A program made the translations under genes and the position numbers. From the NCBI GenBank assembly GCA_905221615.1, contig CAJNDT010006142.1, positions 1 to 64,000 of the forward strand: a DNA stretch of 64,000 nucleotides. The letters are read 5' to 3'. Positions 17,927 to 54,589 of this stretch are shown piece after piece; the stretch's first letter is position 1; each line of letters opens with the position of its first letter. The stretch is from Symbiodinium sp. CCMP2592. Its lineage: Eukaryota; Sar; Dinophyceae; Suessiales; Symbiodiniaceae. The notes beneath the pieces were generated by a model. It was not told the DNA's origin. It saw only the letters and a program-made list of their open reading frames with translations, and ran no database searches.

Positions 17927-17929
17927 AAG

Positions 17930-22706: not shown

Positions 22707-22838
22707 GGTATGTGTGCTTGCTCACGAGTGTTTGGTAATGTTTTTTGCATGCTTGCTGCATTTCATGACACTTCATGTACATTGCAGCAAGCAGGCTCGC
22801 AGCTGCCAGCTCGCCTGCATCGCAGGCTGAAATTTTGT
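22707..22838 (+). repeat. YR-1 repeat A1
   Basis: It matches A2 (40534-40665), 132 bp each, with no difference I can see. It contains a long inverted repeat (GCTTGCTGCA … TGCAGCAAGC) and a terminal hairpin (GCCTGC-ATC-GCAGGC) followed by TGAAATTTTGT. Confidence 0.9.
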
Positions 22839-22952
22839 AGGCTTAACAGGCCTTTCTTTGTAAGCCCTCTAGACCAGGTCTGGAGGCCTCCAATCTGTGT
22901 GGAGTTTAGCTTCACTACATTCCTCTCCCGCTCGCGATAGGGGGAGGAGTGC

Positions 22953-24074: not shown

Positions 24075-24301
24075 AGGCGTTTGGCACAAGCACAGTGACG
24101 GGTCCTTGACCCAGCCCGCGCTCTAGGAGCGCTCGAGTGCTTCAAAGTTTCAACTTTTAGGACTAGGACTTCACTTCCGTAGTCCCGCCCCCACCTTTGG
24201 CAGTGTGGCATCACAGCTTTACTTCACAGCTTTCTTCACAGTTTCGGTGTCCTAGCTGGTGTTCCCTCCCAGTAAGTTTTTCCTAGAATTTTTACCGCGC
24301 C

Positions 24302-27502: not shown

Positions 27503-27556
27503 CCTTGGCCTCAGAGCCACCTTTTCAGCAGCCCACAGAGACCCCCACAGCCTTAC

Positions 27557-32000: not shown

Positions 32001-32439
32001 GGCAGATTGTTCCAACGAATATTTATCCCAGCTTGCCTATGAGTACGCCCCCAAACTTCTATCTCCATCACAGAATATCATTTCATCCCGGATCTCTTAT
32101 CTCGGACATATCCTCAGACATGAAGATTCAATCGAACACATCTCCACCTACCAAACAGCACATGCCTACAGACGCCTCCATAGGAAAAGACCTGGCCACC
32201 CTCGCATACATTGGGCCGAATTGACCATGACGCAAGCGTACCAACGCTATCAAATACTTTCCTCGAATTCCCCTATTCCCCGCCCCTACCAAATACACCA
32301 CGATATCTATCACCATCCTACAGAAAGAGAGGTGGCTGCTGCCCATTTCAGATTTTTTGGTAATACTGACCTTTGGAGGACCCTACAGCCGTTAGCTCAA
32401 AACCGTAGATCCTGGGCTCAGTTAGAAGTTTTGCGTTAA
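29027..32439 (+). CDS. LINE-A ORF2 main part: endonuclease C-half, RNase H, reverse transcriptase
   Basis: Domains in order. Endonuclease C-half: MGDLNAR and a CLDHVLAP…HRHYPLSF end. RNase H (~29694-30140): YTDGAC, NTAELQALLEAL, YTDSQLAY, GHSGHDGNERAD, so all catalytic acidic residues are present. Reverse transcriptase (~30650-31900): APGPDQLPAEIW, FLDWSQAFDSVSH (motif A), GIRQGCPLSPYLF (motif B), IEYADDTVLLS (motif C). A thumb-like region follows, and CQCDFCC gives a Cys cluster after motif C. RNase H before RT is unlike I-clade LINEs, where it follows RT. Catalytic residues are intact; only the upstream frameshift would block expression. Confidence 0.85.
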
Positions 32440-32511
32440 TCAGCTGAAAGGGCTGCTGACGAGTAGTCTCACTTGTGGACTTGCTCTGCGCGACTGAGAG
32501 AGAGAGAGAGA

Positions 32512-32524
32512 GGTCCCGGGCTCT
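32512..32524. repeat. LINE-A target-site duplication, right
   Basis: GGTCCCGGGCTCT, following the (GA)n tail of LINE-A. Confidence 0.85.
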
Positions 32525-34007
32525 GCAGCTGTGGTCTGAGCTATGCGAATTTGCATTGGCATGTTCTGCATTGCTTTGTGATATTTTCAACAGCTCTAAC
32601 AAGCATTCCCTTTTGGAGCAATTGCTCCGCCGAGTATCAGACACTACGGCGCTGAGATACATTGCAATTATGTGGCAATTGCTGCACACGGTTCGAGACC
32701 TGGGTTTTGACCTCACATCCCTGTCTCAGGTTCAGCTTATTGACTCAATTCATACATTACAGAGATCTCGCAGCCATCACTCTTCGGTACATTCCATTAA
32801 TGTGCTCAAGGCTGTACGATGGTTTTCTTCTACAGTGCAGCCCACGGGCTTTCCTTCATTATATGATGGCTTATTTCATGCCAGGTCCTGGCAGTCCCAA
32901 GGTGCATCTAAAGAGGCTCTACCTCTTCCATTATCCTTTATATTGTGGCTGGAGGTCCGACTCGTGTGTGGCCACTTTACATTGGAAGAGACTGCTTTCG
33001 CGGGATCAGTGCTAGTTTGCATCTGGTGCAGTTTGAGGTTTGGCGACTCTCAGCACATTCAGTTGTCAGATCTCTACATTGACTTCGATAGCTTTAGAGG
33101 TGCATCTAATCGAACGAAAACTCAAAAATTTATGGCCTTTGGCTGCCTTTTCTCAGGCCTTTTGAGGCTGCCACGTACACAATGCTGGCTATTGCATTGG
33201 CTAGTGGCTCTTGAGAAACTTATGGATTTACATTCCGATCCTTCAGACATACCGGACTACATTTTCTTCCTTCTGGACAAGGAGTGCATCAGACCATTGA
33301 CTTACGCTGAGTGTCTTTCGAGGCTCAGACGATTGCTGGTCATGTGGAACCAGCTCCCATCGGGTCAAGAACTCCAGTATACGTTACATTCCATGAAAGT
33401 TACATTGCTTTCTTTCTTCAGGCAACTGAACATGTCGCTTGAATCGAGGCACCTTCAGGGCCACCACAAGCATTCTGCTTCTTGTGTTTTATATGGGCGA
33501 GACGACGTCTCTCCATTACTTCTCGCTCAGGACAGTTTCATTGAGAGAGTGAGAGGAGGCTGGCAGTCGCGAACTCCGTTAATGCGTGGAGTCACCTTTA
33601 TGCCTCTTGAACCTGCGTTGCAGTGGCCTCCGGATCTAGGGGCCGTATTGTCTGCTGCCTTGCCAGTCTTCTTTAGGTTGGATACATTTCCGCCGACTTC
33701 GGTGCCCTCGCCCGATGTACCCTCAGCTTCGGCCGCATCAGCTGCACCGGTCAAGGACGTTGTTCCCTCTGCTTTGCCTGAAAAGGTTCCTGAAGAAGCG
33801 GAAACGAGCAGCTCGGAGGGCGAGCTGGGCGAGGCTGAGGAGATTGCATTCCTCAGTGCAACCACCAGCTCCATCATACATGCTTGCATTGAAGGCAAAC
33901 CGGCTTGCGGCTGCCGGGGAACCTTCCATTTAGTTTCGCACCCACCTGCGGGCTCGCGATTCTGCAAGTCAAAGCCTTGCATTTCCATTCTCACGAATCT
34001 GTCGTAA
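32512..34007 (+). CDS. YR-1 tyrosine recombinase (main part)
   Basis: The frame also reads back into the LINE-A tail, but the gene proper resumes at the target duplication. From there, an N-terminal helical domain (~100 residues) is followed by the catalytic core: Arg in CSLRFGDSQ, a NRTKTQ stretch, HSMK (H-x-x-K in place of H-x-x-R), a His group (QGHHKH), and the nucleophile Tyr in VLYGRD. These are the residues that cut and rejoin DNA through a phosphotyrosine link. After the core come ~150 residues rich in Ser, Pro, Ala and Glu, then a Cys-rich end (CGCRGTF … CKSKPC). LINE-A interrupts the gene upstream, so it is not expressible as a whole. Confidence 0.75.
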
Positions 34008-35446: not shown

Positions 35447-36700
35447 ATGTGCACTCTTTGCTTTGCACCACGCCAAGTCGCGATATCTCTCGAGCTCATG
35501 TCGGCCCTCACTCTGGCCCAGATCCTCAGGGAAGAAAAAGTCCCGGATCTTATTGCGAGCCAACTTTCGTCACAGCTGACGATTCACTCATTTCCTTGCA
35601 TTTGCGAAGGAGTCGAAAACTTGCAGGACTCCATCAAAGATGTGCTCGATGCACCGGGACAGGCCATGCTGAACACTGTTAAGTTGGCATGTCTCAAGGC
35701 TTCGTATCATCGATGCATTTCTTCAGTGATATCGACTTCCCCTGCGGCCGGTACTGCATCGGTTGCATCTGGGAGCGCGGTGCCTTCTGCATCATCTTGG
35801 ACTGAGCCTTTTCCTGCGAAGTTGAGCACTGAACGAGTGAATACCATGAGAGCTACATTCGAAGCTTCATACCCTTCTGAGATTCTCGATGCGTCCAGTA
35901 TGCCCTCGTCACGGCTACTTGCATCTTGCAACAAGCAAGTGCAGGACAAACGCTACTCTTACATTCCATGGAAGTTCCGACTCAGCGAAGAGAAACAGGA
36001 AGACGTCACTTCATCCAGACCGAAAAAGATCGCACGTCTCGACGACTTCCTTTTTGACGACGTCCCTTGCAGGGATATCGCCGATACTGGCGTGTCGCAA
36101 ATGTTCCTTTCGCATTTGTTAGACCTGATCGCCTTTGCATTCTGCTTGTTAGAAGTCGCTCACCTCAGTTCCTTTCGTGCATACAACAAGCTTTTTATAA
36201 AGCTTGCATTCCATCGTCCGCCGCCGGAGTCAGGGCTGCGAAGCCCTAACGTCACGGAAATGCAGGCGGCGGACAAAGAAGCTTGGAAATGCATTTGCGA
36301 ATTGGTGAACAAAGGTTGGTGCATTGATGATGCATTGCATGAGATCGTCCAGGTCCGTTGCATTTTGCAGAGCCACTTGCAGCCTCGTGTTTTCATTCAG
36401 AAAACCAAACGCCCCAGCATTGGTTCGGGCAACTCACTACATTTGGACAAGTCCCCGGGCAAGGGCAAAGGCGGCAAAGGTAAAGGCAAGACCGGCAAGT
36501 CCAAAGATACCCGCGACCAGAATGGCCCCAAGTGGATGGTTTCATTTTATGAGAACGGCGTTCAGAAGCAGATGTGCAAGCGTTGGAACCTTCGCTCGGG
36601 TTGCAAGCTGGATGACTGTGCATTTGTACATGGTTGTGCTGTTGATGTTGGCGGCAAGCCTTGCGGGAAGGACCATCCCGCTTACATGCACAAGTCCTGA
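35447..36700 (+). CDS. YR-1 Gag-like protein with CCCH zinc finger
   Basis: Up to 417 residues; the ATG at 35498 (MSALTLAQILREE) is a more natural start. The first ~100 residues are helical, followed by a Ser/Ala-rich linker and a helical middle (HLLDLIAFAFCLLEVAHL … AFHRPPPESGLRSP). A Gly/Lys tract (KSPGKGKGGKGKGKTGKSK) precedes a C-terminal CCCH finger (CKRWNLRSGCKLDDCAFVH, spacing C-x8-C-x4-C-x3-H) and CGKDH. Basic tract plus finger suits RNA binding and packaging. It sits before the polymerase as in YR-2; the pol frame overlaps its 3' end by ~370 bases in the +1 frame. Confidence 0.65.
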   Translation: MCTLCFAPRQVAISLELMSALTLAQILREEKVPDLIASQLSSQLTIHSFPCICEGVENLQDSIKDVLDAPGQAMLNTVKLACLKASYHRCISSVISTSPAAGTASVASGSAVPSASSWTEPFPAKLSTERVNTMRATFEASYPSEILDASSMPSSRLLASCNKQVQDKRYSYIPWKFRLSEEKQEDVTSSRPKKIARLDDFLFDDVPCRDIADTGVSQMFLSHLLDLIAFAFCLLEVAHLSSFRAYNKLFIKLAFHRPPPESGLRSPNVTEMQAADKEAWKCICELVNKGWCIDDALHEIVQVRCILQSHLQPRVFIQKTKRPSIGSGNSLHLDKSPGKGKGGKGKGKTGKSKDTRDQNGPKWMVSFYENGVQKQMCKRWNLRSGCKLDDCAFVHGCAVDVGGKPCGKDHPAYMHKS

Positions 36701-38624
36701 AACAGCCCGAAACCTGTGGAGGGGCAGTTTTCCGGGCTTGCATCACATGCACCCTCACCTATGCCATCGGCGGGCCATACAGCAACTTCTGATGCGGACA
36801 TTCATTCTTGACTTGCTTCAGCAGTCCTTTACATCAACCACTGTGAAGTACAGATGGCAGGCTATTGAGGGGGACCGTGCAGATGCTGCATACTTTAACC
36901 TCGGTGGTTTCTCTCAGTCGGTGCGTTTTGGCCTGACACATCATACATTCCAATTCCAGCACATTTTGTGCCGACTTAATGCTTGGCTATGTATGCTCTT
37001 TCCATTAGGCACCTGGACTTCGTTATGTGTCTCTCACAACGAGGTGCTAAAGGTCCATCGTGATACATCCAACGAGCCAGGCACCCTCAACTACACGGTT
37101 GCTCTGGGTGATTTTTCTGGCGGAGGTTTACTGCTGGAGTCTTCATCGGGCGATAAATCCATGCGAGTGGAAGCCTTGCAGAAGTGCATAAATTTTTCTT
37201 TGGTTGATACCAGGTCATCGCCTCTTGCATTTGATGGTGGCCTGTGGCACGCCACTGAGCCCTTCGTGGGCGACAGGTGGGTCATCACGGCCTACACTTG
37301 CAAGCGTTTGTCTGAATTTCAGTCATCGGATGTCGATGCATTACGCATGTGGGGTTTTCCTCTACCTGGTGAGTCATTACCTCGTCGGATGCCTCAACCT
37401 CAGGCAGTCGAGCTGCCTCAGCCCGCTCTGCCGAAGAAATTCTGCCTTTTGCTTGCTTCACAGCACTCTGAGGTCCTACGTGCCGGCCTTTCCACAGCTG
37501 GTGTTCCTCATGTTTGCATTCAGTCTCTTGATCAGGAGCATACCAGAAATTCCATTTTTCGATGTGCTGGCGAAGGTGTCTTTCCCGCCATTTTCATTGT
37601 GTATTCGACTGCCTGGAGCGAGAGTCACACTCGCTGGGTGCTGCAACTCTGCAAAGTTGCATATTCGGCAGGTTCTGCAGCGCACTTTGATATTTCGGGG
37701 TGGACCCAATGCTGGTCGGATCAACTTTTCCTACATTGCATTTCAACAGGTCTACAGCACATTGTGCAGGTGCCCGCTTGTGCATTCAAAGGTGTGGGTG
37801 GAAGCCCGTGGGTTATGGTCTCTTCCTCACCCTCTTTTTCCGCTTTGGGGCATGCCTGCTCATGTTCGCGGTGCTGCTCCATTTCCAGGTTTTCAGACTA
37901 CCCACCTGCATTTGTGGATGCCTTGTGTGATATACTGCTGATATCCAATCTTCGCAAATGTTCCGGTCAATGCGAATTTTCCATTGATGAGGCCTGGTCT
38001 TGCATTCCAGAAAAACCGACTGAAACTCCGCCACATGCTTGGGTGGATGGTGGTGGCCTTCACAGCCGTCTCGATTGGAGTGGCCACGATCGGTCTACTG
38101 ATGATATCTTCAAATCGCTCCGCCATGCCTTAATTGCTTGGTGTGGCAAGGCATGCATTCCTTCCAGAGTACGTCACAGACTGTCACATCCATCAGATTC
38201 CCACCTCTTCTCGGAAACTGAGGTGGGCGAAATCCGAGGCCTTTTCAGCACGTGGCTGGAGTCTCATGGTTGCAACTCCATTGATTGGCAGGTGAGGGAC
38301 GGCCAGCCATACTGCTTGCATTCTCTGGCTGCTTTGTCCTCAGTTCTTAAAGACGCGGATATGACTCTTTTCAGTGCATTGCTCAGTGGAGTTCCCACTG
38401 GCTTCAAACACGATATCCCAATTTCAGGGGGATTCGCTCCGTCAGGTCGCTCCGCATCAGATGATGCATTAACGGTCTGCCAGGAAAACTGGCAAGGAGC
38501 TGAGGACGACCCAGTCCTCCTTGAAGAGCTGGTGCAGATCGAGGTGGACAAAGGCTGGTTGCGGTGCATTGAGTCGTTGGAAGCTGCACGTCAGATCTGG
38601 CCAATGTTGCTGTTGGTAAACTGA
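36324..38624 (+). CDS. YR-1 Pol, N-terminal part: 2OG-Fe(II) dioxygenase-like domain and degenerate methyltransferase slot
   Basis: The frame opens inside Gag but probably begins to matter near 36700. The dioxygenase lies at residues ~225-330 of this frame. Iron ligands: H245 and D247 (VHRD) and H309 (GLWHATEPF); the 2-oxoglutarate-binding Arg is R318 (GDRWVITAYT). ALGDFSGGGLLLES lies between them. The pattern matches the double-stranded beta-helix fold of the TET/JBP/AlkB superfamily, which oxidise bases. Residues ~370-560 occupy the place of the YR-2 methyltransferase. They keep its tail (YPPAFVDALCDIL against YPPAMCQALCDVF), but PPC and ENP motifs are absent. Then comes the linker to RT. 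Substrate unknown. The frame ends at 38624 by an indel just before RT. Confidence 0.65.
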   Translation: MMMHCMRSSRSVAFCRATCSLVFSFRKPNAPALVRATHYIWTSPRARAKAAKVKARPASPKIPATRMAPSGWFHFMRTAFRSRCASVGTFARVASWMTVHLYMVVLLMLAASLAGRTIPLTCTSPETARNLWRGSFPGLHHMHPHLCHRRAIQQLLMRTFILDLLQQSFTSTTVKYRWQAIEGDRADAAYFNLGGFSQSVRFGLTHHTFQFQHILCRLNAWLCMLFPLGTWTSLCVSHNEVLKVHRDTSNEPGTLNYTVALGDFSGGGLLLESSSGDKSMRVEALQKCINFSLVDTRSSPLAFDGGLWHATEPFVGDRWVITAYTCKRLSEFQSSDVDALRMWGFPLPGESLPRRMPQPQAVELPQPALPKKFCLLLASQHSEVLRAGLSTAGVPHVCIQSLDQEHTRNSIFRCAGEGVFPAIFIVYSTAWSESHTRWVLQLCKVAYSAGSAAHFDISGWTQCWSDQLFLHCISTGLQHIVQVPACAFKGVGGSPWVMVSSSPSFSALGHACSCSRCCSISRFSDYPPAFVDALCDILLISNLRKCSGQCEFSIDEAWSCIPEKPTETPPHAWVDGGGLHSRLDWSGHDRSTDDIFKSLRHALIAWCGKACIPSRVRHRLSHPSDSHLFSETEVGEIRGLFSTWLESHGCNSIDWQVRDGQPYCLHSLAALSSVLKDADMTLFSALLSGVPTGFKHDIPISGGFAPSGRSASDDALTVCQENWQGAEDDPVLLEELVQIEVDKGWLRCIESLEAARQIWPMLLLVN

Positions 38625-40330: not shown

Positions 40331-40533
40331 GGGGAAACATGCAGATCAGTTTCACTGCAAGGTCCATCCCTTGCTCGGACAGCATGATCTGCATTCCCGC
40401 CAGAGAACAAAGGAACGAGTGCTTTGCGAGTGACTGCATCAATTCCGTTTGAATATTTTTCATTTGCTTTATATGTATATGCTTTACATATAAAGCTGCA
40501 CATAGGAAGCAGCTGCGAATACATTAACCGAAC
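40331..40533 (+). repeat. YR-1 repeat B1
   Basis: 203 bp, matching 40874-41025 plus 49583-49633 with one visible mismatch (CCGTTTG versus CCATTTG). It ends ATTAACCGAAC. Confidence 0.9.
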
Positions 40534-40665
40534 GGTATGTGTGCTTGCTCACGAGTGTTTGGTAATGTTTTTTGCATGCTTGCTGCATTTCATGACACTT
40601 CATGTACATTGCAGCAAGCAGGCTCGCAGCTGCCAGCTCGCCTGCATCGCAGGCTGAAATTTTGT
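40534..40665 (+). repeat. YR-1 repeat A2
   Basis: Copy of A1 (22707-22838). It ends with the GCCTGC/GCAGGC hairpin and TGAAATTTTGT, followed by CCCACCCACC of B2. Confidence 0.9.
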
Positions 40666-41025
40666 CCCACCCACCTCTTCCCTTTGTTTGGGGAGTACAG
40701 TGCTGGCATCTGCATTCTGGTGGTCGCATTTTTACTTGCATTGCTGGCTCCTGATGTTTGCATCAACATCAAGCGATCCTTTTGTGGCCATCTTCTAAGA
40801 AGCATGACCTTTCTGCATTCCTTCATCGGTGACAGGTCGGTGCCTTTTGATGCACTTAGATCTCACCGGATGGGGGGAAACATGCAGATCAGTTTCACTG
40901 CAAGGTCCATCCCTTGCTCGGACAGCATGATCTGCATTCCCGCCAGAGAACAAAGGAACGAGTGCTTTGCGAGTGACTGCATCAATTCCATTTGAATATT
41001 TTTCATTTGCTTTATATGTATATGC
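40666..41025 (+). repeat. YR-1 repeat B2, left part
   Basis: The first 208 bases (from CCCACCCACCTC to 40873) are not present in B1; from 40874 it equals B1. It is interrupted at 41025 by YR-2 and resumes at 49583. Confidence 0.85.
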
Positions 41026-41299
41026 GAACTCTGTCGAGCGCGCACGATATACCTTTATGAAACGTCGGACAGCCTTCCATGGGAAGGCGGTTTCAAAATG
41101 TGAGCTTTTGACTCACTCTTTTTTTTTAGGCGTGTTGCGGATTTTGTTTGAAAAGTAGTCGGACACACCTTTTGAGCATGCAGACTACTTTTCAATGTTG
41201 ATTGAAGTTTGACTCAATTGCTATGGGAATTGTTGCATGTATGCTCTCATGCCGTTGCCAGTTTCCTCAATCAGTGTGAGTGAGGAAAACAAATTTTGT
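41026..41299 (+). repeat. YR-2 repeat A1
   Basis: 274 bp, near-identical to A2 (48951-49225); differences cluster near 41130-41150. It contains the hairpins GCCTTCC-ATG-GGAAGGC and TTTCCTCA…TGAGGAAA, then CAAATTTTGT. Confidence 0.9.
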
Positions 41300-41307
41300 T
41301 GGGGCCT

Positions 41308-41396
41308 TTTGAGGTTCAGGACCCTGCATTGAACCAGGGCCCCTCTCTCGACGTTGGGCTTAGCCCACCGTGCACGCCGCTGTCGCCGACAGCGGC
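41308..41396 (+). other. Hairpin cluster in the YR-2 leader
   Basis: Three inverted repeats follow A1: GGTTCA…TGAACC (about 41311-41336), TGGGC-TTA-GCCCA (about 41355-41367), and a 10-bp-arm perfect palindrome with a 1-nt centre at 41376-41396 (arms GCCGCTGTCG / CGACAGCGGC). They lie in the leader between A1 and the recombinase start at 41418. Possible roles are RNA packaging, priming or recombinase binding. Confidence 0.6.
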
Positions 41397-41417
41397 AGAT
41401 GGCAGCAGAGCTGAAAG

Positions 41418-43190
41418 ATGGGCGAAGGTGATGAATCTGCCCCGTTCGACAGTCGGGCAGTGGCCTTTCATGCAGCTCATACTTGGAATGCTTATAAGAG
41501 ATCGGTAGGCATCTTCCCGAGCCCTCCAGAACAAATGCATTCGCTCTTCAGGAGAAGCTGCCTCTTGCCTAGGCCGACAGGGCTCTTGCCCCCAGCGCCG
41601 GGTCCAGGGCCGATGGCCGCTTCTTCCAGCTCCGGCCCAGATCTTGGAGCCTCGCAGTCAGCATTCCTTGCAGCGGGACTGAAGCCATTGTCAGCCCGAG
41701 ATGCTCACTTAAGGTCTAAGGCCCTGGATGCTAATAGGAAGTGTGCCTTGAAGAAGTGGGTTACGCTTGTTTCCTTGGATTTTAACGCCTGGGGTGTAGC
41801 CAAGCAAGCCATGGGGCCTTTCGATCCTAAATTTGCCACAGGAGGCTTGGTGGAAAGTGTGCAGGACTGTCTTGCAGACAAAGCCACAGCTACCTTGCAC
41901 CAACGCGTGGGACCCATCTTCAGATACGTGCACTTCTGGAAGCTTCAGTTCGTAGTGTGCCTGCCTGTGAGAGAGCACCAGCTCTACGATTACTTCAAGG
42001 CAAATCCGAATGCGGCCCCGACTTCGTTCAGGTCGCTGCTTATCGCTTTCAGCTTCGCCAAACATCTGCTAGGCTTGATCGTGTTGGACGAAGCCCTGAG
42101 CAGCGGGAGGATCGTAGGGCTTGCAAATGCTCATTACTCGACGAGGTGTGCAGTTAAGCGCAGGCCTGCTCTAACCGTGGAGCAAGTCAAGCGACTCGAA
42201 GCTCTCGTGCTCAGCCTCCTGGCGCGGCCAATGGACCGAATCGCAGCTGGGTGTTTTCTGCTTATGATATATGGTCGCCTACGGTTTTCAGACATGCAAC
42301 GCTCTTCAGGTTTCGCGATTGATTCAGCTTTGATTGATGGCGTGGAATCAGGGTACCTTGAAGGGCAAGCCGAGAGGACCAAGACCTCGGTGTCGCTTGA
42401 AAGGAAGATCCGCTCTCTTCCCATCGCTGTTCCGTTGAAATGCGTAGGAGGTAGGCCTTGGATCAGAGCATGGCTTGAGCTTCGAGAGGCAGAGGGTCTC
42501 GATAGTTCGTATCCTACACTTCCGTGCCCCGCAACCGGAGGCGGGTGGACAAGACTTCCGCTTAAGGTCTCAAGTGGAGGCGCCTGGCTGAGAAGTTTGA
42601 TTCCTGGCGCGAGTGCAGCATCTGGCGACGTCCAGATCGCGACCCACTCTTGTAAGAGTACACCGCTCTCCTGGATGGCGAAAAGAGGCGTGCCGGCCGG
42701 CCCTCGTCGCACTCTGGGTTACCACGTACCGCGCAAGGACAAGTCGTTAATCATTTATGCCAGGGATTCACTAGCGGCTCCATTGCGCGAGCTGGACCGG
42801 GTAATCGACGAGATTGCCGCCGGTAGATTCAAGCCGGATCTCACTCGAAGTGGGATGATAGCCAATCTTGCAGATCCACAGCTTCCACCTGAGCATGAGG
42901 AGGAGGCTGACGCCATATCATCGAGCTCTAGCGAGGCGTCCGATGATGAGGAAGAGGCTCCCGTGAGTGACGAGGAGCAGGCCTTGGAGCAGATCGCCGG
43001 TCAGTGGGGCCCCGAGCCCGGCGACGGGCCTTGGGCTCGTCACAAACAGACTAGGTTTTTGCACAAGGTGAGAGATGAGGCCGGGACCCACTTGAAGTGC
43101 GGTAGAGCGATCTCGGTGCGTTTTGAGATTTTAAGCGAGGCGCCAAGATTTATGTATCCTACATGCGCCACCTGCTTTCCGAACTCCTGA
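41418..43190 (+). CDS. YR-2 tyrosine recombinase
   Basis: 590 residues, ATG start. Residues ~1-85 are Pro/Ser-rich. Residues ~90-240 form the helical DNA-binding domain (LKKWVTLVSLDFNAW … HFWKLQFVVCLPV). The catalytic core (~250-455) shows R289 (GRLRFSDMQ), RTKTS (320-324), H410-x-x-K413 (THSCKST), H436 (LGYHVP) and nucleophile Y447 (LIIYARD). Lys replaces the second Arg, as in YR-1. The C-terminus is acidic and Ser-rich (ISSSSSEASDDEEEAPVSDEE) and ends with a Cys pair (YPTCATC). The enzyme would insert the circular DNA copy, consistent with the absence of a target duplication. Uninterrupted, with all core residues present. Confidence 0.85.
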   Translation: MGEGDESAPFDSRAVAFHAAHTWNAYKRSVGIFPSPPEQMHSLFRRSCLLPRPTGLLPPAPGPGPMAASSSSGPDLGASQSAFLAAGLKPLSARDAHLRSKALDANRKCALKKWVTLVSLDFNAWGVAKQAMGPFDPKFATGGLVESVQDCLADKATATLHQRVGPIFRYVHFWKLQFVVCLPVREHQLYDYFKANPNAAPTSFRSLLIAFSFAKHLLGLIVLDEALSSGRIVGLANAHYSTRCAVKRRPALTVEQVKRLEALVLSLLARPMDRIAAGCFLLMIYGRLRFSDMQRSSGFAIDSALIDGVESGYLEGQAERTKTSVSLERKIRSLPIAVPLKCVGGRPWIRAWLELREAEGLDSSYPTLPCPATGGGWTRLPLKVSSGGAWLRSLIPGASAASGDVQIATHSCKSTPLSWMAKRGVPAGPRRTLGYHVPRKDKSLIIYARDSLAAPLRELDRVIDEIAAGRFKPDLTRSGMIANLADPQLPPEHEEEADAISSSSSEASDDEEEAPVSDEEQALEQIAGQWGPEPGDGPWARHKQTRFLHKVRDEAGTHLKCGRAISVRFEILSEAPRFMYPTCATCFPNS

Positions 43191-43465
43191 GGTTCAAAAG
43201 CCGTGTCAGGAGTCAACGCCACGCGTGGGCGAAAATCGCGGGGTCTGAGAAAAGGCAACATGCAAATGTCACCTTGGTCGTGGATGAATAACCAGCGCGA
43301 TCTCGTAGTGACTGCTTGTGTCTTGGAAGTGCAGAACTACAAGTGCTGTTTGAGCGATGCTTGTCACGTGAATTGTGTGTTGCACTAGGGAGCTGCCGAT
43401 GACAAAAGTGATTGCAAGGCGTGCTGGGCCCTAGTCTGAGCTTGACAGTCTAGAAAGAAAGAGCC

Positions 43466-44704
43466 ATGTCGTTTGGAGAGAGTGCGGCTGTCTTCAAGGC
43501 GCGAGCCAAGGACATTGGAGTTTCAGATGAGAGCTTCGCGAAGCTTGAGGCGGAGGGACTGACAACGATGGCAACTTTCGCCTTCTGTTGTCATTTCAAC
43601 CCGTCTGCGACAGACGAGAAGCCTCTCACCGACCTGGTGACCAAGGTTCTCGGTGCTGCGCCTTCCCTTAAGGAGATGAGTTGCTTTCGGCGTCTGTTCG
43701 CCGAGGCATACGCAACTGTTGCATCCGACATACGAGCTCAAGTGGAAGCAACGGAGGATTCATCGATCAAGAAATTAGCTCCGGCCGACAGGGCCGAGCG
43801 TTTGCGGGAGCAACAGGCCAGGCTCAAAGGTCTTGACTTGAGGGGCAACATGGAGCCAGGCGATTCCTTGATAGATCGGGCTGTGGCGATCTACGAATCT
43901 GACAGACTCCAATATGTGGAGTGGCAGCATTCTGTCAGCAGGCAGCATGAGCTTCTTACCGGGCTCAAGAAGGATGCATCGCTTACTTTGGATTCTGCAG
44001 GCGGCCTGAAAATTGCCAGCAAGCCCAATGTAACTCCTTGCGACGTGTCGAATGACATGATGGTTCGCTACGCCTTAGTGCGAAGGGGCCTAGCCTTTGA
44101 ACAGGCGAACATCATGGCATACCATTTGCACGATGAGTTGCTTGAAAAGTACATGTCGTTCAGGCTTACCGACCCTCCTCCGAATCATGCACGGGTGAGC
44201 TTGAAACAGATTGAGCAAGCTGATCGACAATTTACCTTGTTGCTCGCGGAACACACTCGCAGCGGCATCAAGGTGAAGGCGGGAGGATCGCGGCCATGCG
44301 ATGATGCATTCCGCAAAGTGTTCGAGAGCACTGACTTCCTCTCGATGCTAACCCCGAGGCCTCTTGCAGCGGGATCAGGAGCTAGCCGTGACGCTTCCTC
44401 AGGTGATGAGCCCCCGATCAAGCGCCATAAGGGCAATGGCAAGGGCGTGGGTCGTGGGCGCGGGGGTAAGGGCGCCGGCAAAGGATCCACCAATGCCAGG
44501 GTCCCGGCAGAGCTCCTCGCACTCGGGTGCGTGGCCGCCACGCCTAAAGGACATGCCTTATGCTTCGATTACTCGCTAGGGAAATGCTCCCGAGCAGTGG
44601 CCAACCAAAGGTGTGAAAGGGGATTGCATTTGTGTGCAGTCAAAGGATGCCACAGAGGGCACCCAGCCAAGGAATGCCCTGCGAAAAAGGCGCCTTCGTC
44701 GTGA
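43466..44704 (+). CDS. YR-2 Gag-like protein with zinc knuckle
   Basis: 412 residues, ATG start. Helical through ~residue 290, with charged amphipathic segments (DRAERLREQQARLKGLDL). A Gly/Lys/Arg tract (KGNGKGVGRGRGGKGAGKG) at ~330-350 precedes a C-terminal Cys/His module: C-x7-C-x8-C-x4-H (CFDYSLGKC … CERGLH) and C-x4-C-x3-H-x4-C (CAVKGCHRGHPAKEC). Layout matches retroelement nucleocapsid proteins. It ends in TCG TGA; the next codons CTA ATG open the Pol ORF in the same frame, so a Gag-Pol fusion by readthrough is plausible. Confidence 0.75.
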   Translation: MSFGESAAVFKARAKDIGVSDESFAKLEAEGLTTMATFAFCCHFNPSATDEKPLTDLVTKVLGAAPSLKEMSCFRRLFAEAYATVASDIRAQVEATEDSSIKKLAPADRAERLREQQARLKGLDLRGNMEPGDSLIDRAVAIYESDRLQYVEWQHSVSRQHELLTGLKKDASLTLDSAGGLKIASKPNVTPCDVSNDMMVRYALVRRGLAFEQANIMAYHLHDELLEKYMSFRLTDPPPNHARVSLKQIEQADRQFTLLLAEHTRSGIKVKAGGSRPCDDAFRKVFESTDFLSMLTPRPLAAGSGASRDASSGDEPPIKRHKGNGKGVGRGRGGKGAGKGSTNARVPAELLALGCVAATPKGHALCFDYSLGKCSRAVANQRCERGLHLCAVKGCHRGHPAKECPAKKAPSS

Positions 44705-44710
44705 CTAATG
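44702..44710 (+). promoter_or_regulatory. Candidate stop-codon readthrough site between Gag and Pol (UGA CUA AUG)
   Basis: The only stop between Gag and Pol is TGA followed by CTA, and both ORFs share the frame. UGA-CUA is an established leaky stop context in several RNA viruses and some cellular genes. Re-initiation at the ATG six bases on is the alternative. Confidence 0.55.
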
Positions 44711-47700
44711 AGTCCGACGAGCGCGCGCGCCCCACCATCGCCATTGGCGCACGGTGGGAGCGATGTCACAGAGAGCCATGGCTCAACTGCCGGTGTGGAG
44801 CCAGCAGATGATCAATCGCTCAACGATTCTTCTTGTTTTCCCCCTGAGCCACCCTGTAAGGCGGCTAAATTAGACGATGCATATGCCTTTTGCGAATCTT
44901 TGGCAAGCCACTTTTTGCAATCTTCCGACTTCAGTGCAACTAACATAGCGTCCATTTTGGACGCATTTCCTTCGGAGGACCACACTCGAACTTGGCTGGA
45001 AGCCGATGGAGACTCCAAAGCCATTACGGTAGGTGCGTGCAACCGAGGCGGGGTCACAGCAGTTCGCAGTAACACCCGCCGCATGCCGGCGGTGGCAAAG
45101 TATCTTGCAGCTTGTGTCAAGTTGGTTGCACCGAAATGCGAGTTCACATCCGTGTCTGTGCACCGGAACCTACAAGCCCCAATGCATCAGGACTCCTTCA
45201 ACAGCAGTGTGCCTAACGTCATTGTCCCACTATCCTCCTTTGCTGGAGGACACATCTTCGTCGTGCATCCTGAGGGCCCAGACCATACAACCTACGAAGA
45301 TGTTCCGTGGACAGGTTTCAAACTCGATTGTGCTTCTCATGCTTGGGCTTTTGATGCTAAGCACTGCAAACACTTTACTTTGCCGTGGAAAGGCTCCAGA
45401 TCCCTTCTCGTTGCCTTTACCGTGGGTCACCTCTCGGGTTTAGCTCCCGGTGACAGGGTCCCCTGCCAGGATGTACAACAGGGCCCCACCATGAAGCCGT
45501 ACCCTTTGCAAGGTTACGATTTGCGGTGTCCACAAGTGTCCACCGACTCGGCGCCGCTGGCTCAGCCGAGTCCGGCCTTCCCTTCTGCTGAGTTGCCCGC
45601 CGACGGGCCTTTGGTGATCGAGCTCTGTGCCGGGTCCGCCATTCTCAGTCAGACGGCCGCATGCCGCGGCTTTGCAATCATGCCAGTGGATCATGCGCAC
45701 AATCGCCACGCTCCCAAGTGCAAAATCGTGAATCTCGACTTGACAAAAAGCCACTCCTGGGAGGTCCTCAAATTTGTAATCAAGTCCCGGCGGGTGGTGA
45801 TGGTGTTTGCTGCTCCGCCTTGCGGCACCTGCAGTGCTGCTCGCAACTACCGCCCGGGACCCCCAGTGCTCCGCACTACCTCACATCCGTGGGGTGTCCC
45901 GTGGGCCTCTACCAGAGACTGTGTCAAGCTTAAAGCTGCCAATGCAATATACAAACACCTTTGTGCTTTTCTTGAAATGTGCGATCAGCACTCCGTGCCT
46001 TGGTGCGTGGAGAACCCTACCAACAGCATGTTCTGGGAACTGCCATGTCTCGCGTACCCTTTGGCTCATGGTTTCTTCGCACATTGTCAGGCATGCGCTT
46101 TCGGCAGCGAACGCGACAAGAAGACCTCCTTTTTGTGCAGCAGCTCGTGTATCTCTCGCATGGCTCTCATGTGCCCAGGCTGCAAACAACATGCATCATG
46201 GGGCCAGACCTCTTCTGCCACCTTCGCCACGGCGGAGGAAGCAGCTTACCCACCGGCCATGTGTCAGGCCTTGTGTGATGTCTTTGAGTCTGAGGCTGCG
46301 CGCCTCAACTACACGTTGGGCTCGGCTCATCCAGTCCTGGCCCGAGCCCACAAGCAGCCTCGCGGGCGCCTACACCCGCAACTCCTGTCGGAACATAGTG
46401 CAATCCTCTCCCGTCTGCTGCCCCGGGCCCCGACCCTTAATAACAAGCGCTGCCTCAAGCATGATGTTCACGGCGTCCCGGCCGGCAGCAAACTCTTGCG
46501 TTCCGAGAATAGGGGAAGTAAAGGTGTCTTCTGTGTCTTTGGAGTCTTCAGGAGCCCAGAGTCGTTCGTCAGAGAGGCTAAGCTGCTGCACCACCCGTTT
46601 GATTCCCTGGCACAGCTACCAGACTACTTGATCAAATCCCTGTTTGAGCAGATAACAAAATCCCCTGCGGAGATCTGCAAGCTCAGACTTCTTCGTCTTC
46701 AAAGATGGAGAGCCAGAGCGACGGAGCTGGCGCCAGTCGAGCATGCACACCGTGCCAAGATGCAGCCTTCAGTGAGGGAAATCCTCGCCAACAAGCGTAC
46801 GGCTCTCCTGGAGGAGATGGCGGCCGAAATTGATTGGCCGGACAAGGGTCTCTTCTCAGAAATGCGCCAGGGCTTCCGACTCGTTGGCTGCCTGAGCCCT
46901 TCTGGTGTGTTCAGGGAAGGAGGGTACCTCGCCTCCATCAGCGAATCGGAGTTGATGGAAAACGCTGATAGCATCAAAGATTCTCTCTTGTCACGTGTGT
47001 CATCTGATCCTCTTGACGAGAACGCTGACGAGCTGTACGATGTGACTCTTCAAGAGTCAACCCAGAAAAAGTGGCTAGAAGGGCCGATGTCTCCCGAAGA
47101 CATTGGAAAGCGACTTGGGGCATGGATCCCAGTGCGCCGCTTCTGTGTTGTGCAAAAAGGACGCTTGAGACCGATCGACGACTTCAAGGAGAATCTTGTA
47201 AACCAAGCCTGCTCTACAAGCGAACGGATCGTGCTTCAGGCGATGGACCATCTTTTATGGTCTCTTTCTGTGTTGTGCCATTTCTACCGGAAGCGAGGAG
47301 CCGTCGATTTCACTTTGTCCTCTGGAGAGAGGTTGACGGGGCACGTCCACCCTGACTGGCAGAAATCGGGGGCGAGCATGCAAGTCGCCACCTTGGACTT
47401 GAAATCCGCATACAAACAGCTACCTTTGAGTCCCTGCGATTTCGACAAAAGCGTGGTGACCTTGAAGGATCCGAAAACGGGATCCATCTCTTGCTTTGTC
47501 ATGCGCACGCTCCCATTCGGAGCGCTTGCATCAGTGTACCACTTTCTGCGCGTCAGTTTGCTGTTGCATGCCCTCGGGTGCCACCTAGGAGCATGCTGGT
47601 CCGCATACTTCGACGATTTCCCCATGGCAACGCATTCGCTTGTGGCCACGTCAACTTCGGCTCTAGTTAAGGGGTTCCTTAAGTTAGCGGGGTTCGACTT

Positions 47701-48604
47701 TGCAGATGAGAAGTGCACGCCTTTCTCTGCCGATGTCGAAGTCTTGGGAGTTACTCTCGATGTATCCCAGAGCACGGAGGGACTCATCAATATCCGAAAC
47801 AAGCCTTCCAGGTGCGAGGAGCTGAATGCTGTGATTGAGGAGGTTCTTAGGGATAAGTCCATTGTCCCCTGCCGGTTACCCTCCTTCATAGGCAAACTTC
47901 AGTTCGCTGACGGTCAAATCTGGGGCCGGGCTGGGCGCATGGCCTTGCGCGATCTAAGGACTTTAGGGTTCACTTCTAGGGTGCCGGTTTCCCTCGATGC
48001 CAGCGGGATCGATGCGCTCAAAATCCTCCAGCAGAGGTTGATGCACGGAAAGCCTCGCGTCATCCGGGCCGGATGGAAAGAAAAGCCGATACTGCTGTTC
48101 ACAGATGGAGCACTGGAAGATGACAACCACGATCACGGACCGGCCACCGTGGGGGCAGTCATGTTTAAGCCGAATGAATCCAATGTGTACGCTTTCGGAT
48201 GCGAGGTGCCGGCCAACGTACTGTCTCATTGGAGATCCGACGGCAAGCGTCATGTCATAGGTCTTGTGGAGCTTTATGGAGCCATTCTGGCTCTTCGGCA
48301 TTGGCGTAAACACTTGGACGGCAGACGAGTGATTTTGTTTGTCGACAATTGGCCAGCACTTGATACTCTTGTCAAAGGAGATGCCACCGTCGCAATTTGG
48401 CGGGAAATTCTTATGATCCTTGAAAACCCGCAGGAAGCATCACCATGTTATTTATGGATAGCACGAGTACCTTCAGCGTCCAACATCGCAGACGCCCCGA
48501 GCCGTGGATCGCTTTCCGAGCTTAGTCACTGGCCGTTATGCGTCGAGGTGCCCAATTGCCCGCTGTCGAAAGTTGCTCTGAAGTCGATTGTGTCTCAAGG
48601 CTAA
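44708..48604 (+). CDS. YR-2 Pol: dioxygenase, cytosine-methyltransferase-like, reverse transcriptase, RNase H
   Basis: 1298 residues, uninterrupted. Residues ~105-245: 2OG-Fe(II) dioxygenase-like, with H160-x-D162 (MHQD), H222 (KHFTLPW) and R231 (GSRSLLVAFTV), the same spacing as in YR-1. Residues ~300-525: methyltransferase, with SAM-binding IELCAGSAIL (304-313), AAPPCGTCSAAR with candidate nucleophile C372, and WCVENP (432-437), the PPC/EN(V/P) signature of C5-cytosine enzymes. Residues ~800-1060: RT, with LRPIDDF, LDLKSAY (D897), PFGALASV and YFDD (D969, D970). Residues ~1125-1270: RNase H, with FTDGA, VELYGA, FVDN and NIADAPSRG. RT/RNase H makes the DNA copy; the first two domains could modify it or the target. 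Substrates are inferred, not shown. Confidence 0.8.
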   Translation: MSPTSARAPPSPLAHGGSDVTESHGSTAGVEPADDQSLNDSSCFPPEPPCKAAKLDDAYAFCESLASHFLQSSDFSATNIASILDAFPSEDHTRTWLEADGDSKAITVGACNRGGVTAVRSNTRRMPAVAKYLAACVKLVAPKCEFTSVSVHRNLQAPMHQDSFNSSVPNVIVPLSSFAGGHIFVVHPEGPDHTTYEDVPWTGFKLDCASHAWAFDAKHCKHFTLPWKGSRSLLVAFTVGHLSGLAPGDRVPCQDVQQGPTMKPYPLQGYDLRCPQVSTDSAPLAQPSPAFPSAELPADGPLVIELCAGSAILSQTAACRGFAIMPVDHAHNRHAPKCKIVNLDLTKSHSWEVLKFVIKSRRVVMVFAAPPCGTCSAARNYRPGPPVLRTTSHPWGVPWASTRDCVKLKAANAIYKHLCAFLEMCDQHSVPWCVENPTNSMFWELPCLAYPLAHGFFAHCQACAFGSERDKKTSFLCSSSCISRMALMCPGCKQHASWGQTSSATFATAEEAAYPPAMCQALCDVFESEAARLNYTLGSAHPVLARAHKQPRGRLHPQLLSEHSAILSRLLPRAPTLNNKRCLKHDVHGVPAGSKLLRSENRGSKGVFCVFGVFRSPESFVREAKLLHHPFDSLAQLPDYLIKSLFEQITKSPAEICKLRLLRLQRWRARATELAPVEHAHRAKMQPSVREILANKRTALLEEMAAEIDWPDKGLFSEMRQGFRLVGCLSPSGVFREGGYLASISESELMENADSIKDSLLSRVSSDPLDENADELYDVTLQESTQKKWLEGPMSPEDIGKRLGAWIPVRRFCVVQKGRLRPIDDFKENLVNQACSTSERIVLQAMDHLLWSLSVLCHFYRKRGAVDFTLSSGERLTGHVHPDWQKSGASMQVATLDLKSAYKQLPLSPCDFDKSVVTLKDPKTGSISCFVMRTLPFGALASVYHFLRVSLLLHALGCHLGACWSAYFDDFPMATHSLVATSTSALVKGFLKLAGFDFADEKCTPFSADVEVLGVTLDVSQSTEGLINIRNKPSRCEELNAVIEEVLRDKSIVPCRLPSFIGKLQFADGQIWGRAGRMALRDLRTLGFTSRVPVSLDASGIDALKILQQRLMHGKPRVIRAGWKEKPILLFTDGALEDDNHDHGPATVGAVMFKPNESNVYAFGCEVPANVLSHWRSDGKRHVIGLVELYGAILALRHWRKHLDGRRVILFVDNWPALDTLVKGDATVAIWREILMILENPQEASPCYLWIARVPSASNIADAPSRGSLSELSHWPLCVEVPNCPLSKVALKSIVSQG

Positions 48605-48612
48605 AGCAGACT

Positions 48613-48950
48613 GGGGGATTTATGCTTCGAGGTGCACGGTTAAACCGGGCACGTCACAATGAGCTGTGGCTCATGTCTTATGCCGGGTCGAGGGGCCCGG
48701 CACAGGATTCATCCCCAGTTTGCCGATGCGTGTAAAACAATCGAGTGAGCAGCTTGCCAGCAGTCACTATTTTGATATGCTTCGCAAATATGTTTGCGAG
48801 CCCAAATATCATTTCGGGCAATACTGATTTGTCAACCTTGCAATTGCTTGTATGCCATATTTCCTCGAAGGGGAATTGTACACGCCCCCACGATCGTGTT
48901 ATTCTTATATCCTTGTTGATTAACTTTTGAAACTCCGACGAACTTCATAA
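48613..48950 (+). repeat. YR-2 repeat B1
   Basis: 338 bp, matching 49245-49582 with one visible mismatch (CCGACGAAC versus CCGAAGAAC). Rich in hairpins: ATGAGC-TGTG-GCTCAT, TGCCGGG…CCCGGCA, TCGCAAA-TATG-TTTGCGA. A 61-codon frame inside both B copies (48745 and 49377) is probably incidental. Confidence 0.9.
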
Positions 48951-49225
48951 GAACTCTGTCGAGCGCGCACGATATACCTTTATGAAACGTCGGACAGCCT
49001 TCCATGGGAAGGCGGTTTCAAAATGTGAGCTTTTGACTCACTCTTTTTTTTTAGCCGTATTTCGGGATTTTGTTTGAAAAGTAGTCGGACACACCTTTTG
49101 AGCATGCAGACTACTTTTCAATGTTGATTGAAGTTTGACTCAATTGCTATGGGAATTATTGCATGTATGCTCTCATGCCGTTGCCAGTTTCCTCAATCAG
49201 TGTGAGTGAGGAAAACAAATTTTGT
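48951..49225 (+). repeat. YR-2 repeat A2
   Basis: Copy of A1 with a few differences. It ends CAAATTTTGT, then CCCACCCACCC begins B2. Confidence 0.9.
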
Positions 49226-49582
49226 CCCACCCACCCGACCCTGTGGGGGATTTATGCTTCGAGGTGCACGGTTAAACCGGGCACGTCACAATGAGCTGTG
49301 GCTCATGTCTTATGCCGGGTCGAGGGGCCCGGCACAGGATTCATCCCCAGTTTGCCGATGCGTGTAAAACAATCGAGTGAGCAGCTTGCCAGCAGTCACT
49401 ATTTTGATATGCTTCGCAAATATGTTTGCGAGCCCAAATATCATTTCGGGCAATACTGATTTGTCAACCTTGCAATTGCTTGTATGCCATATTTCCTCGA
49501 AGGGGAATTGTACACGCCCCCACGATCGTGTTATTCTTATATCCTTGTTGATTAACTTTTGAAACTCCGAAGAACTTCATAA
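49226..49582 (+). repeat. YR-2 repeat B2
   Basis: The first 19 bases (CCCACCCACCCGACCCTGT) are absent from B1; the other 338 are the B copy. It ends CTTCATAA at the junction with YR-1. Confidence 0.9.
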
Positions 49583-49633
49583 TTTACATATAAAGCTGCA
49601 CATAGGAAGCAGCTGCGAATACATTAACCGAAC
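49583..49633 (+). repeat. YR-1 repeat B2, right part
   Basis: 51 bases equal to 40483-40533 (end of B1), from TTTACATATAAAG to ACCGAAC. This ends YR-1; LINE-B resumes at 49634. Confidence 0.9.
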
Positions 49634-52043: not shown

Positions 52044-52046
52044 CGG
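52041..52046 (+). promoter_or_regulatory. Candidate readthrough stop (UGA CGG) before LINE-B endonuclease
   Basis: A single in-frame TGA separates the Cys/His ORF from the endonuclease-RT ORF. UGA-CGG is the other known leaky 'type II' context. It may equally be a decay mutation, since LINE-B has other lesions. Confidence 0.35.
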
Positions 52047-53597
52047 GGTAGGGTCCGCACTCCTCCGGTGTGGACCCAACTGCATGGCATTGGTGAGGCC
52101 GATAACCCGGGTCCTGCAGGACCTCCTACTGGACTCCGGGCTTTGACTTGGAATATTGGTAGTCTGACCTTGCACCAGCTTGTTTTGCGTCAGCTGCTGT
52201 CCAATCATCGCATCGACATTGCTTTCATCCAAGAACATCGTGTTCCGCTTGAGGCTCGCAGTAGAATGAGGCGGGACTTTCGGACCGAAGGGTGGAGTCT
52301 GTTCTTCGGTCCTGACCGCCAGTGTGGATACGGCGAGGCCATTGTGGTTCACAAACGTTTTTCCGGGGTGGCGTTGCATGAGTCATCGTCCATCTGTGCG
52401 GTGGCATTGCGGTTGCGCAGCGGTGCGTTGGGTCGTTTTGCTAGTGTTTATGCTCCAGTGGCCGAACACGGCACTCAGGATTCTTACTGGTTTGAGCTTG
52501 CCTCATGGGCCAATCTTCCTGGGGTTTGGTTTGCGGGGGGGGACTTCAATATTGATCTGTCTGAGGCCTGCCACTCTCCGCCTTTCGGTCCGATTGGGCA
52601 TTTGGTTTGTCCGGAGGGGGGCGCATGGCGCCGCTCGCTCCACCACGATTGGTGCAGGCCCATTGACGGTTTCTTGGGGTGTAGGGGTCTGAAACCCTCC
52701 AGCTCATGTTGGGCCCTTCGGGATCAAGTGATTACTCAGCATGCTCCGGTGATCAGTGTCGTGCCGTGTGCGGGGCTGGATGAGCATACTCTTTCTTGGA
52801 GCCTTCCTAGGCCGATCTCCTCGGATTGGCATCGTCAGGCCGATGATGCATTTAGAGGGGCTCTTTCTCGTGGTGATTCTGATGCTGCCTGGGCGATTTG
52901 GCTTGAGCTTGCCTTCGGCCTTAAGCATGATCGTGATCCCTACAGCCGCGTGGGTTGCTCGGTTTTAGGTCCGGGTCGGGAGTTTAAGGAGCGGACTCTC
53001 GCGGCCATGCGCCAAACTCGCAAACTTGCTCATGATGCTTCCGCGCTTGGGTGGAATCATCGCTTGCATTGCCAGTATGAGCGCCTTGAGCGTGACCTTG
53101 AAACCTTGGTTGCCGATCGTCGCAAAACCATGCTGCAATCTTGGAAAGAGCGGATGAGACACCTCGGTCCCGCTGCACGCTGGGTTAAACACCATGACTC
53201 ACCTCCTTTGTCTTTGTCCAGGGAAGATGGCTCGCCGGCCATTACTCCTGTTGAGCAAGGTGAAGCCATCAAACGCGAGTGGCTCCCTCGGTGGACTGAG
53301 CTCCCTAGGACCTTCCTCGAAGAGTCTAGGGGGGCACTGAACGCTGTTGTTGGGCCTTTGGCTGCTCGTGCTCCGGCCTTCCACGCTCCTCCCCCTTGGT
53401 CGGTTCAAGCCATTCGAAGGGAAATGCGTTCTTCTGCTGCCGGCCTCGATGGCCTCGGTTTTCATCATTACGCCGCGCTCGATGACCATCACCTCCAACG
53501 GTTGACGCCTTTGATTCGGGCATGGCCTTTCCTGCTTCATGGCATACCGCACGCCTCATTTGCATCTCCAAATCTGACGGAAGTGCCAGACCTCTGA
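52044..53597 (+). pseudogene. LINE-B ORF2, endonuclease and start of RT
   Basis: APE-type endonuclease: LTWNIGSLT, then IAFIQEHR (catalytic Glu), then FAGGDFNIDL; a final His-containing block (QHAPVISV) follows. A helical linker rich in Arg/His leads to the RT N-terminus (SAAGLDGLGFHHYAAL). The frame is lost near 53520; RT continues in the frame of 53522. The ORF lacks an obvious ATG, which supports either readthrough from the preceding ORF or loss of the start. Confidence 0.75.
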
Positions 53598-54589
53598 CGG
53601 TCCTTCCGGTTGCTTATAGGATCTGGGCCGCTCGTACGGCTCGTTCTCTCGCGGAGTGGACTCGGTGGCTACCGGCGGAGCTGGTGGGTGGGCGGCCTGG
53701 ATGCCCGCCAGCTTCCGCTACTGGCAACTTTATGTCGGCCAAAGTAGCTGTTGCTCACGGCTCGGGCGGTACTCTTGCCGGCATGTGCTTGGATACGCAT
53801 AAGTGCTTTGACACGGTCTCTCTCGAGGCTTTACAAGTGCTCATGGATGCTTGTGGTGCCCCCCAATGCGTCATGCAAGTGATGTGTCTTTGGCGCGATT
53901 TGGTTCGGCATGTCTGGACACCCGAGGGTCCGACGGGGGTGACGATTCGGGCCGATCGGCAGCGCGGGCTCCCTCAGGGAGACCCGATCTCACCTTGGGC
54001 CTTGAACATGCTGATGGGCGCGTGGGTCCTACACGTTGGTCACTGTGAGGCTGTGCGCGTCTTCCTTGATGATCGCTGTTTGGTTGATCCGGATACGCGT
54101 CGTTTGAGCCGGGCGCTTGATCGCACAATCGAGTTCGATAGACTGTTTGAAATGGCCGTCCATGCTCGCAAGTCTTGTCGTTTCTACGTCGGCTCGCCTG
54201 CCTTGCACCAGGGCGGCTCGTGGAGGGACCTGCCTCTCAAAATTGCCATCACTTACCTGGGGGTCCAAATTGAGACCTGTGCGGCGCCGATGACCGCCGG
54301 GGACGAGCGCGCCAGGCAGGTGCGTTCAAAGGTACTTCGCGCTCGGGTGCTCCCCGATCGCCCCACCCGCCAGCTTCTGCTTCCTGCACTGTTGCAAGGC
54401 ATGTACTCCGAAGGGGTCACGGCAAGCCAAAAAGCGCTTGAAGCTTTGAGTGCTGCGGTTTGTCATGCGTGGTGGGGTCCCACTCTTCGCCCGCGTAACC
54501 GGATGCGTAGCCAAGCTCTCACGCTGGGGCTGCTTGGGCCTTTTTGCATCGCCTCGCTCCCGAAATGGCCCAGTGCTACGGGGCCATAG
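53522..54589 (+). pseudogene. LINE-B reverse transcriptase, palm region
   Basis: RT motifs in order: ARLICISKSDGSARPLTV (template-contact region), GMCLDTHKCFDTVSLEAL (A), GLPQGDPISPWALNMLM (B), RVFLDDRCLV (C; F-L-D-D instead of Y-x-D-D). The frame ends at 54589 by another indel. It reverse-transcribed LINE RNA at the nicked target. Confidence 0.8.

Follow-up and report, generated by a model that had tools for sequence, protein, structure and literature searches.

What would a retrotransposon do with an oxidising and a methylating enzyme built into its polymerase, and would the two act as a pair? The question is raised by a tyrosine-recombinase (YR) element, here named YR-2, in the dinoflagellate Symbiodinium sp. 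CCMP2592 (assembly GCA_905221615.1). It lies on contig CAJNDT010006142.1, of which positions 1 to 64,000 of the forward strand (64,000 nucleotides; the window) were analysed. A preliminary description of this DNA, made from its letters and open reading frames (ORFs), had proposed that a 2-oxoglutarate–Fe(II) (2OG) dioxygenase and a C5-methyltransferase (MT) precede reverse transcriptase (RT) and RNase H in the polymerase polyprotein (Pol), and that this pair of a writer and a possible oxidiser could act together. The best explanation overall, which is probable without being secure, is that YR-2 is a DIRS-like retrotransposon whose Pol 2OG and MT domains modify its own new nucleic acid; the two domains do not behave as a coupled pair.

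Anatomy of YR-2

The repeats and ORFs of YR-2 follow the order A-ORFs-B-A-B, with split direct repeats as in DIRS-like elements:

41026–49582 (+): whole YR-2 element, 8557 bp, delimited by its split direct repeats and by the interrupted 203-bp repeat of YR-1
41026–41299 (+): repeat A1, 98.2% identity with A2
41415–43190 (+): tyrosine-recombinase-like ORF, 591 aa, named from motif and position
43454–44704 (+): gag-like ORF, 416 aa, with a Cys/His-rich tail; putative label from position and sequence
44708–48604 (+): Pol, 2OG–methyltransferase–RT–RNase H
45023–45457 (+): 2OG-Fe(II) dioxygenase domain, Pol residues 106–250
45593–46297 (+): compact C5-methyltransferase domain, Pol residues 296–530
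47048–47977 (+): reverse transcriptase (YFDD), Pol residues 781–1090, approximate limits
48005–48517 (+): RNase H, Pol residues about 1100–1270, weak (E 0.098), approximate limits
48612–48950 (+): repeat B1, 99.7% identity with B2
48951–49225 (+): repeat A2, partner of A1
49244–49582 (+): repeat B2, partner of B1

The Pol frame is, as first described, a single uninterrupted one of 1298 codons plus stop. Its coordinates hold for the Pol ORF and do not describe the element as a whole. The ends of YR-2 are fixed because it has inserted into a related but older element, YR-1, splitting the latter's B2 repeat. Joining the YR-2 flanks recreates an empty site that is identical at 202/203 positions to the other YR-1 B copy, and in this reconstruction there is no target-site duplication. 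Split repeats and insertion of this kind agree with the earlier assignment to the YR retroelements. The insertion point itself (41025/41026 and 49582/49583) is an A+T-rich, partly palindromic stretch of the YR-1 repeat (TATATGTATATGC/TTTACATATAAAG), which possibly reflects a target preference of the recombinase.

Pfam has no match for the recombinase-like ORF, so its name rests on motif and position: R290, H411xxK414, H437 and Y448 are invariant in 4/4 aligned ORFs, and we take this R...HxxK...H...Y pattern to be the tyrosine recombinase motif. The gag-like ORF likewise has no Pfam match. In Pol, Pfam detects the proposed RT (RVT_1 at 8e-7, narrowly short of the family's cut-off) and, weakly, RNase H (RT_RNaseH, 0.098); it recognises neither of the two N-terminal domains. 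The best match of YR-2 Pol is P0002, a Symbiodinium sp. CCMP2592 protein with 100% identity over 96% of the query. At least ten full-length, stop-free Pol copies, the window copy included, lie on ten contigs of the same genome, a lower bound in that scoring covered 36 of the 6701 initial candidates. YR-2 is an intact DIRS-like (tyrosine-recombinase) retrotransposon, and was probably mobile recently. The anatomy and the folds of its Pol domains, as described here, are held with high confidence.

The dioxygenase and methyltransferase domains

The residues originally read as the HxD…H…R of a dioxygenase (H160, D162, H222 and R231) occupy columns without variation in a 2OG alignment of 15 rows, where HxD, N, H and R persist in every row at identities down to about 20%. 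Within a first, 481-residue model the domain was poorly predicted (pLDDT mostly 30–60), and for this reason it was folded again alone. The result was a moderate-confidence model of a double-stranded beta-helix (DSBH) with 2OG enzymes as the top structural matches, in keeping with the fold first proposed. The domain is, on this predicted structure, a 2OG-Fe(II) dioxygenase with the iron triad and the 2OG-binding Arg on a DSBH fold.

Its family is less sharply drawn. The Asn of HxDxxN, invariant in these rows, occurs in prolyl hydroxylases of the PHD type too and was not used for choosing a family. Foldseek places NgTET1 first, and VIA-align gives a tie between TET and other 2OG enzymes; structures of AlkB and ABH2 are also among the top matches. 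The Pfam family Tet_JBP is listed weakly (E<=1) for 3 of the 15 rows, and its best score, 17.5 bits, stays below the curated cut-off of 34.9. AlkB-type Pfam families are listed for none of the 15 rows. The RxxxxxR motif by which the AlkB family binds 2OG (PMC9289625) lacks its second Arg here, with F or Y at R+6 in all 15. A sequence-only search of PDB chains gave 0 matches at E<=10 with 2OG profile A3 and one, irrelevant, with profile A5; NCBIfam gave nothing for the domain, PHROGs a single irrelevant match (0.095), and an IMG/VR scan with one 2OG domain no relative. On present evidence the domain is most TET/JBP-like.

The methyltransferase was assessed over 69 Pol rows (the query and 68 matches), gathered via words from the first 500 residues of the query and hence biased towards proteins bearing the N-terminal domains. 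C372 is conserved in 69/69 rows, and PC and E..P (the E435-N436 site) in 68/69 each, so that the residues picked out at the outset lie on conserved columns. The Cys of PC is presumably the catalytic one of motif IV, and the Glu of ENx that of motif VI, of C5-methyltransferases. Structure prediction gave, as had been proposed, a class I methyltransferase fold of C5 type and not an unrelated one. Against M.HhaI, 201 residues of 327 are aligned and the domain is ~90 residues shorter, which raises the question of its target-recognition domain. Among 39 rows searched at E<=1, PF00145 is listed in none and Methyltransf_23 in two (best 0.03). PDB chains searched with an MT-only profile gave three other methyltransferases (E 0.11–0.96) and no C5-methyltransferase; the whole-Pol profile drew mainly RTs, with a single weak methyltransferase. 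Although PHROG 757 matches the domain by profile, a viral source is unsupported, because neither an IMG/VR scan with the MT profile nor tblastn of the domain against phages found a relative. By its fold, this part of Pol is a compact, divergent C5-methyltransferase, presumably an active one.

In the same domain C463, C489 and H495 (46094–46192) are conserved in 69, 69 and 68 of the 69 rows. These residues, which we assume to lie outside the C5-methyltransferase active site, may form a metal site.

Both domains are under purifying selection

Comparison of YR-2 with seven copies of a sister subfamily, close relatives that are not independent of one another, gave dN/dS of 0.052–0.062 for 2OG and 0.046–0.050 for MT, alongside 0.037–0.042 for RT and 0.053–0.061 for RNase H, at dS of about 0.4–0.95 by domain. 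The N-terminal 105 residues of Pol stand at about 0.19 (four copies). In a second family, represented by the single pair L009 and L013, the values are 0.10 for 2OG, 0.046 for MT, 0.021 for RT and 0.066 for the long stretch between MT and RT. The N-terminus (0.94) and the 2OG–MT linker (0.52) of this pair evolve loosely and serve as an internal control, showing that constraint tracks the domains. Both domains are under strong purifying selection in the two families tested, and the suggestion that they are conserved rather than random is upheld, the values for YR-2 being about 0.05–0.06 in both and far from 1.

Independent assortment of the two domains

Searching the genome with the YR-2 2OG domain gave at least 150 matches: 150 of 4555 candidates were scored and all matched at E<=5e-20, 149 of them stop-free. 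Eight of these loci were examined, and in each the 2OG domain shares a long frame with an RT of YxDD type, recognised by inspection and alignment rather than by Pfam. The state of the methyltransferase varies among them. L037 has it with PC and ENP intact; in L041 it has decayed, keeping ENP and losing the catalytic Cys; L040 and L042 carry decayed versions. A remnant stands N-terminal to 2OG in L043 (2.7e-6) and possibly in L039 (0.012, sub-threshold), and L038 and L044, which belong to a single family, have 2OG without MT. In the L009–L013 family, found via the whole Pol, both domains are detected by HMM in 5/5 loci, all with B repeats; PPC and ENP are present in the two copies read, L009 and L013. 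The 2OG domains of ten such families in the genome share 20–39% identity with each other.

The converse is seen in the 69 Pol rows, where all four 2OG residues are present in 7 (among them P0057, with HRD by its separate alignment), the C-terminal pair only in 2 and neither in 60, some of which may be truncated gene models. The 2OG and MT domains assort independently, and the simple model of a coupled writer and eraser, which the preliminary description had suggested, is rejected on these 8 loci and 69 rows. Each domain is found without its partner and must therefore bring some benefit by itself.

The 2OG domain extends beyond YR elements. A search with the copia-type 2OG domain of P0070 again gave at least 150 matches: every one of the 150 candidates scored (of 4955) matched at E<=3.5e-37; 2 of the 150 have internal stops, and many frames are about 3000 aa long. 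The two lists of 150 are lower bounds and may overlap. In L051, the one P0070-type match read through, 2OG (residues 1471–1638) and RVT_2, the copia-type RT (1915–2133), share a frame bounded by the fetched stretch, and HxDxxN occurs in six more P0070-type pieces. A CCCH zinc finger (2e-6) was also noted in the N-terminal part of this polyprotein, at L051:1057–1125.

Probable exchange of the 2OG domain between lineages

Trees of 12 rows each were compared for 2OG and RT. For 2OG, L009 groups with YR-1 (100/99), and L039 and L043 fall with YR-2's kind. For RT, it is L039 and L043 that group with YR-1 (100/99), and L009 that falls with YR-2's kind. Each data set rejects the grouping of the other (the RT grouping by 2OG data, p-AU 0.004; the 2OG grouping by RT data, p-AU 0.001). 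The correlation between the two distance matrices is modest (r 0.34, reached by 55 of 2000 permutations). The evidence that the 2OG domain moved between retroelement lineages is strong but not final, because each grouping was defined with the opposite tree already known, the branches are long and the columns few, and forks remain open (6/9 in the 2OG tree, 4/9 in the RT tree).

Possible roles and alternatives

Under the explanation preferred here, both domains would be enzymatically active and, tethered to RT, would work on nucleic acid that the element has just synthesised. DNA as the substrate is close to an even call, falling a little short of it. Methylation of the cDNA by the methyltransferase would make it look like host DNA, which is heavily methylated at CG; the part of the dioxygenase would be to oxidise the 5-methylcytosine or thymine of the cDNA and so to mask it or oppose silencing. 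These would be separable modules of an arms-race kit, with no obligate pathway between them. Dinoflagellate nuclear DNA is rich in hydroxymethyluracil. A more specific proposal is that a TET/JBP-derived base oxidase is a horizontally exchanged module of dinoflagellate retrotransposons, crossing tyrosine-recombinase and Ty1/copia elements, which oxidises thymine or 5-methylcytosine in cDNA or erases transposon-silencing hydroxymethyluracil; this is tentative, and rather doubtful as a whole.

The same tether to RT, an RNA reader, is also what might be expected of an RNA demethylase or repair enzyme acting like AlkB, clearing the element's RNA genome of m6A, m5C or alkyl lesions. The AlkB and ABH2 structures among the top folds fit such a role, as does an orchid Ty3/gypsy element with an AlkBH5-like 2OG ORF whose product is an m6A RNA demethylase in vitro (PMC9289625). 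The F or Y in place of the second Arg of RxxxxxR, and the AlkB-type Pfam families missing from the rows of which three show a weak Tet_JBP signal, make this unlikely. A prolyl-hydroxylase-like enzyme acting on Gag, Pol or a host protein is less probable still: that weak Tet_JBP signal and the association with RT in both YR-type and copia-type elements favour, by argument, a nucleic-acid substrate. Several relatives without the methyltransferase Cys or ENP keep an open frame, as would be expected if the domains were catalytically dead and retained as nucleic-acid-binding or structural modules. Given the near-invariant methyltransferase active site in the Pol rows and the invariant iron and 2OG ligands in the 2OG rows, this is improbable. 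An artefact, whether of chance motifs or of a chimeric assembly, has nothing in its favour beyond the first description having started from motifs. It is refuted by the ten copies on ten contigs and the low dN/dS, with homologues in other data sets pointing the same way; the residual chance is negligible.

YR-1 and other neighbours in the window

The older element and its second 2OG domain are placed as follows:

22707–49633: YR-1, with repeats A1 (22707–22838), B1 (40331–40533, +) and A2 (40534–40665)
40874–41025 and 49583–49633: YR-1 B2, split by YR-2
36801–37343 (+): second 2OG domain, in the YR-1 Pol ORF (36309–38624); BLASTP to P0001, 24%, 8e-7

The methyltransferase region of YR-1 is without PPC or ENP and has no significant MT match. 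The repeats of the element have hardly diverged (A, 132/132; B, 202/203), yet its Pol is broken into several frames. A recombinase-like ORF lies at 32460–34004 (HMM 2e-7). Long LINE-like ORFs at 24287–32439 are nested in YR-1, judging by position; one of them matches RT (3e-37), RNase H (7e-18) and, weakly, an endonuclease. Elsewhere in the window are degraded Pol pieces of the same family (17799–19595), the main piece spanning RT to RNase H (HMM about 1e-145); a ~3-kb direct repeat with 96% identity and internal repeats (11515–14505 and 14998–17926); LINE-like ORFs that encode endonuclease and RT domains (52044–54589); and a frame (21843–22940) bearing the string GEGNCLYHSL, which we take to resemble OTU-type cysteine proteases.

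Comparison with known systems

The nearest published system is SymbioDIRS-Dnmt3 (PMC5890265), which shares with YR-2 the Symbiodinium host group, the A-coding-B-A-B repeats, a separate tyrosine-recombinase ORF and a C5-methyltransferase with RT in the Pol ORF. De novo CG methylation was reported, and cDNA methylation suggested, for related DIRS methyltransferases (PMC5890265). Those enzymes were identified through PF00145 and cluster with Dnmt3, whereas the YR-2 domain is compact and divergent and falls outside PF00145 in the 39 rows searched; the word 'dioxygenase' is absent from the main text of that paper (de Mendoza et al. 2018). DIRS elements with a Dam-like enzyme (cited in PMC5890265) likewise join a YR retrotransposon to a DNA methyltransferase, theirs being an unrelated N6-adenine methyltransferase and that of YR-2 of C5 fold. 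The orchid Ty3/gypsy element resembles YR-2 in carrying a 2OG dioxygenase, but in a plant host and as a separate ORF of the AlkB family with RxxxxxR (PMC9289625), a motif absent in the dinoflagellate rows.

Fungal DNA transposons and Helitrons (Kojima 2025, PMC12730594), until now the known carriers of TET/JBP, offer the closest parallel for the dioxygenase, in that a TET/JBP-type enzyme is transposon-borne and has been transferred between transposon lineages; that 2025 survey found no retrotransposon with TET/JBP. The dinoflagellate 2OG domain, possibly of the TET/JBP kind, is instead fused to the Pol of YR-type and copia-type retrotransposons. Within searches of an open-access library such a fusion appears to be new, though work on the dinoflagellate hydroxymethyluridine enzyme (PNAS 2024) could describe related domains. 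That many families of retrotransposons in a single genome have a 2OG dioxygenase joined to Pol, and that it apparently moved between distant RT lineages, raises the testable hypothesis that retroelements alter the chemistry of the cDNA or RNA they produce. Element-encoded oxidases would bear directly on the origin of the unusual dinoflagellate epigenome, and if a base-oxidase module is indeed shared among them, retroelements would form a major reservoir of dinoflagellate thymine and 5-methylcytosine hydroxylases and might be where these arose.

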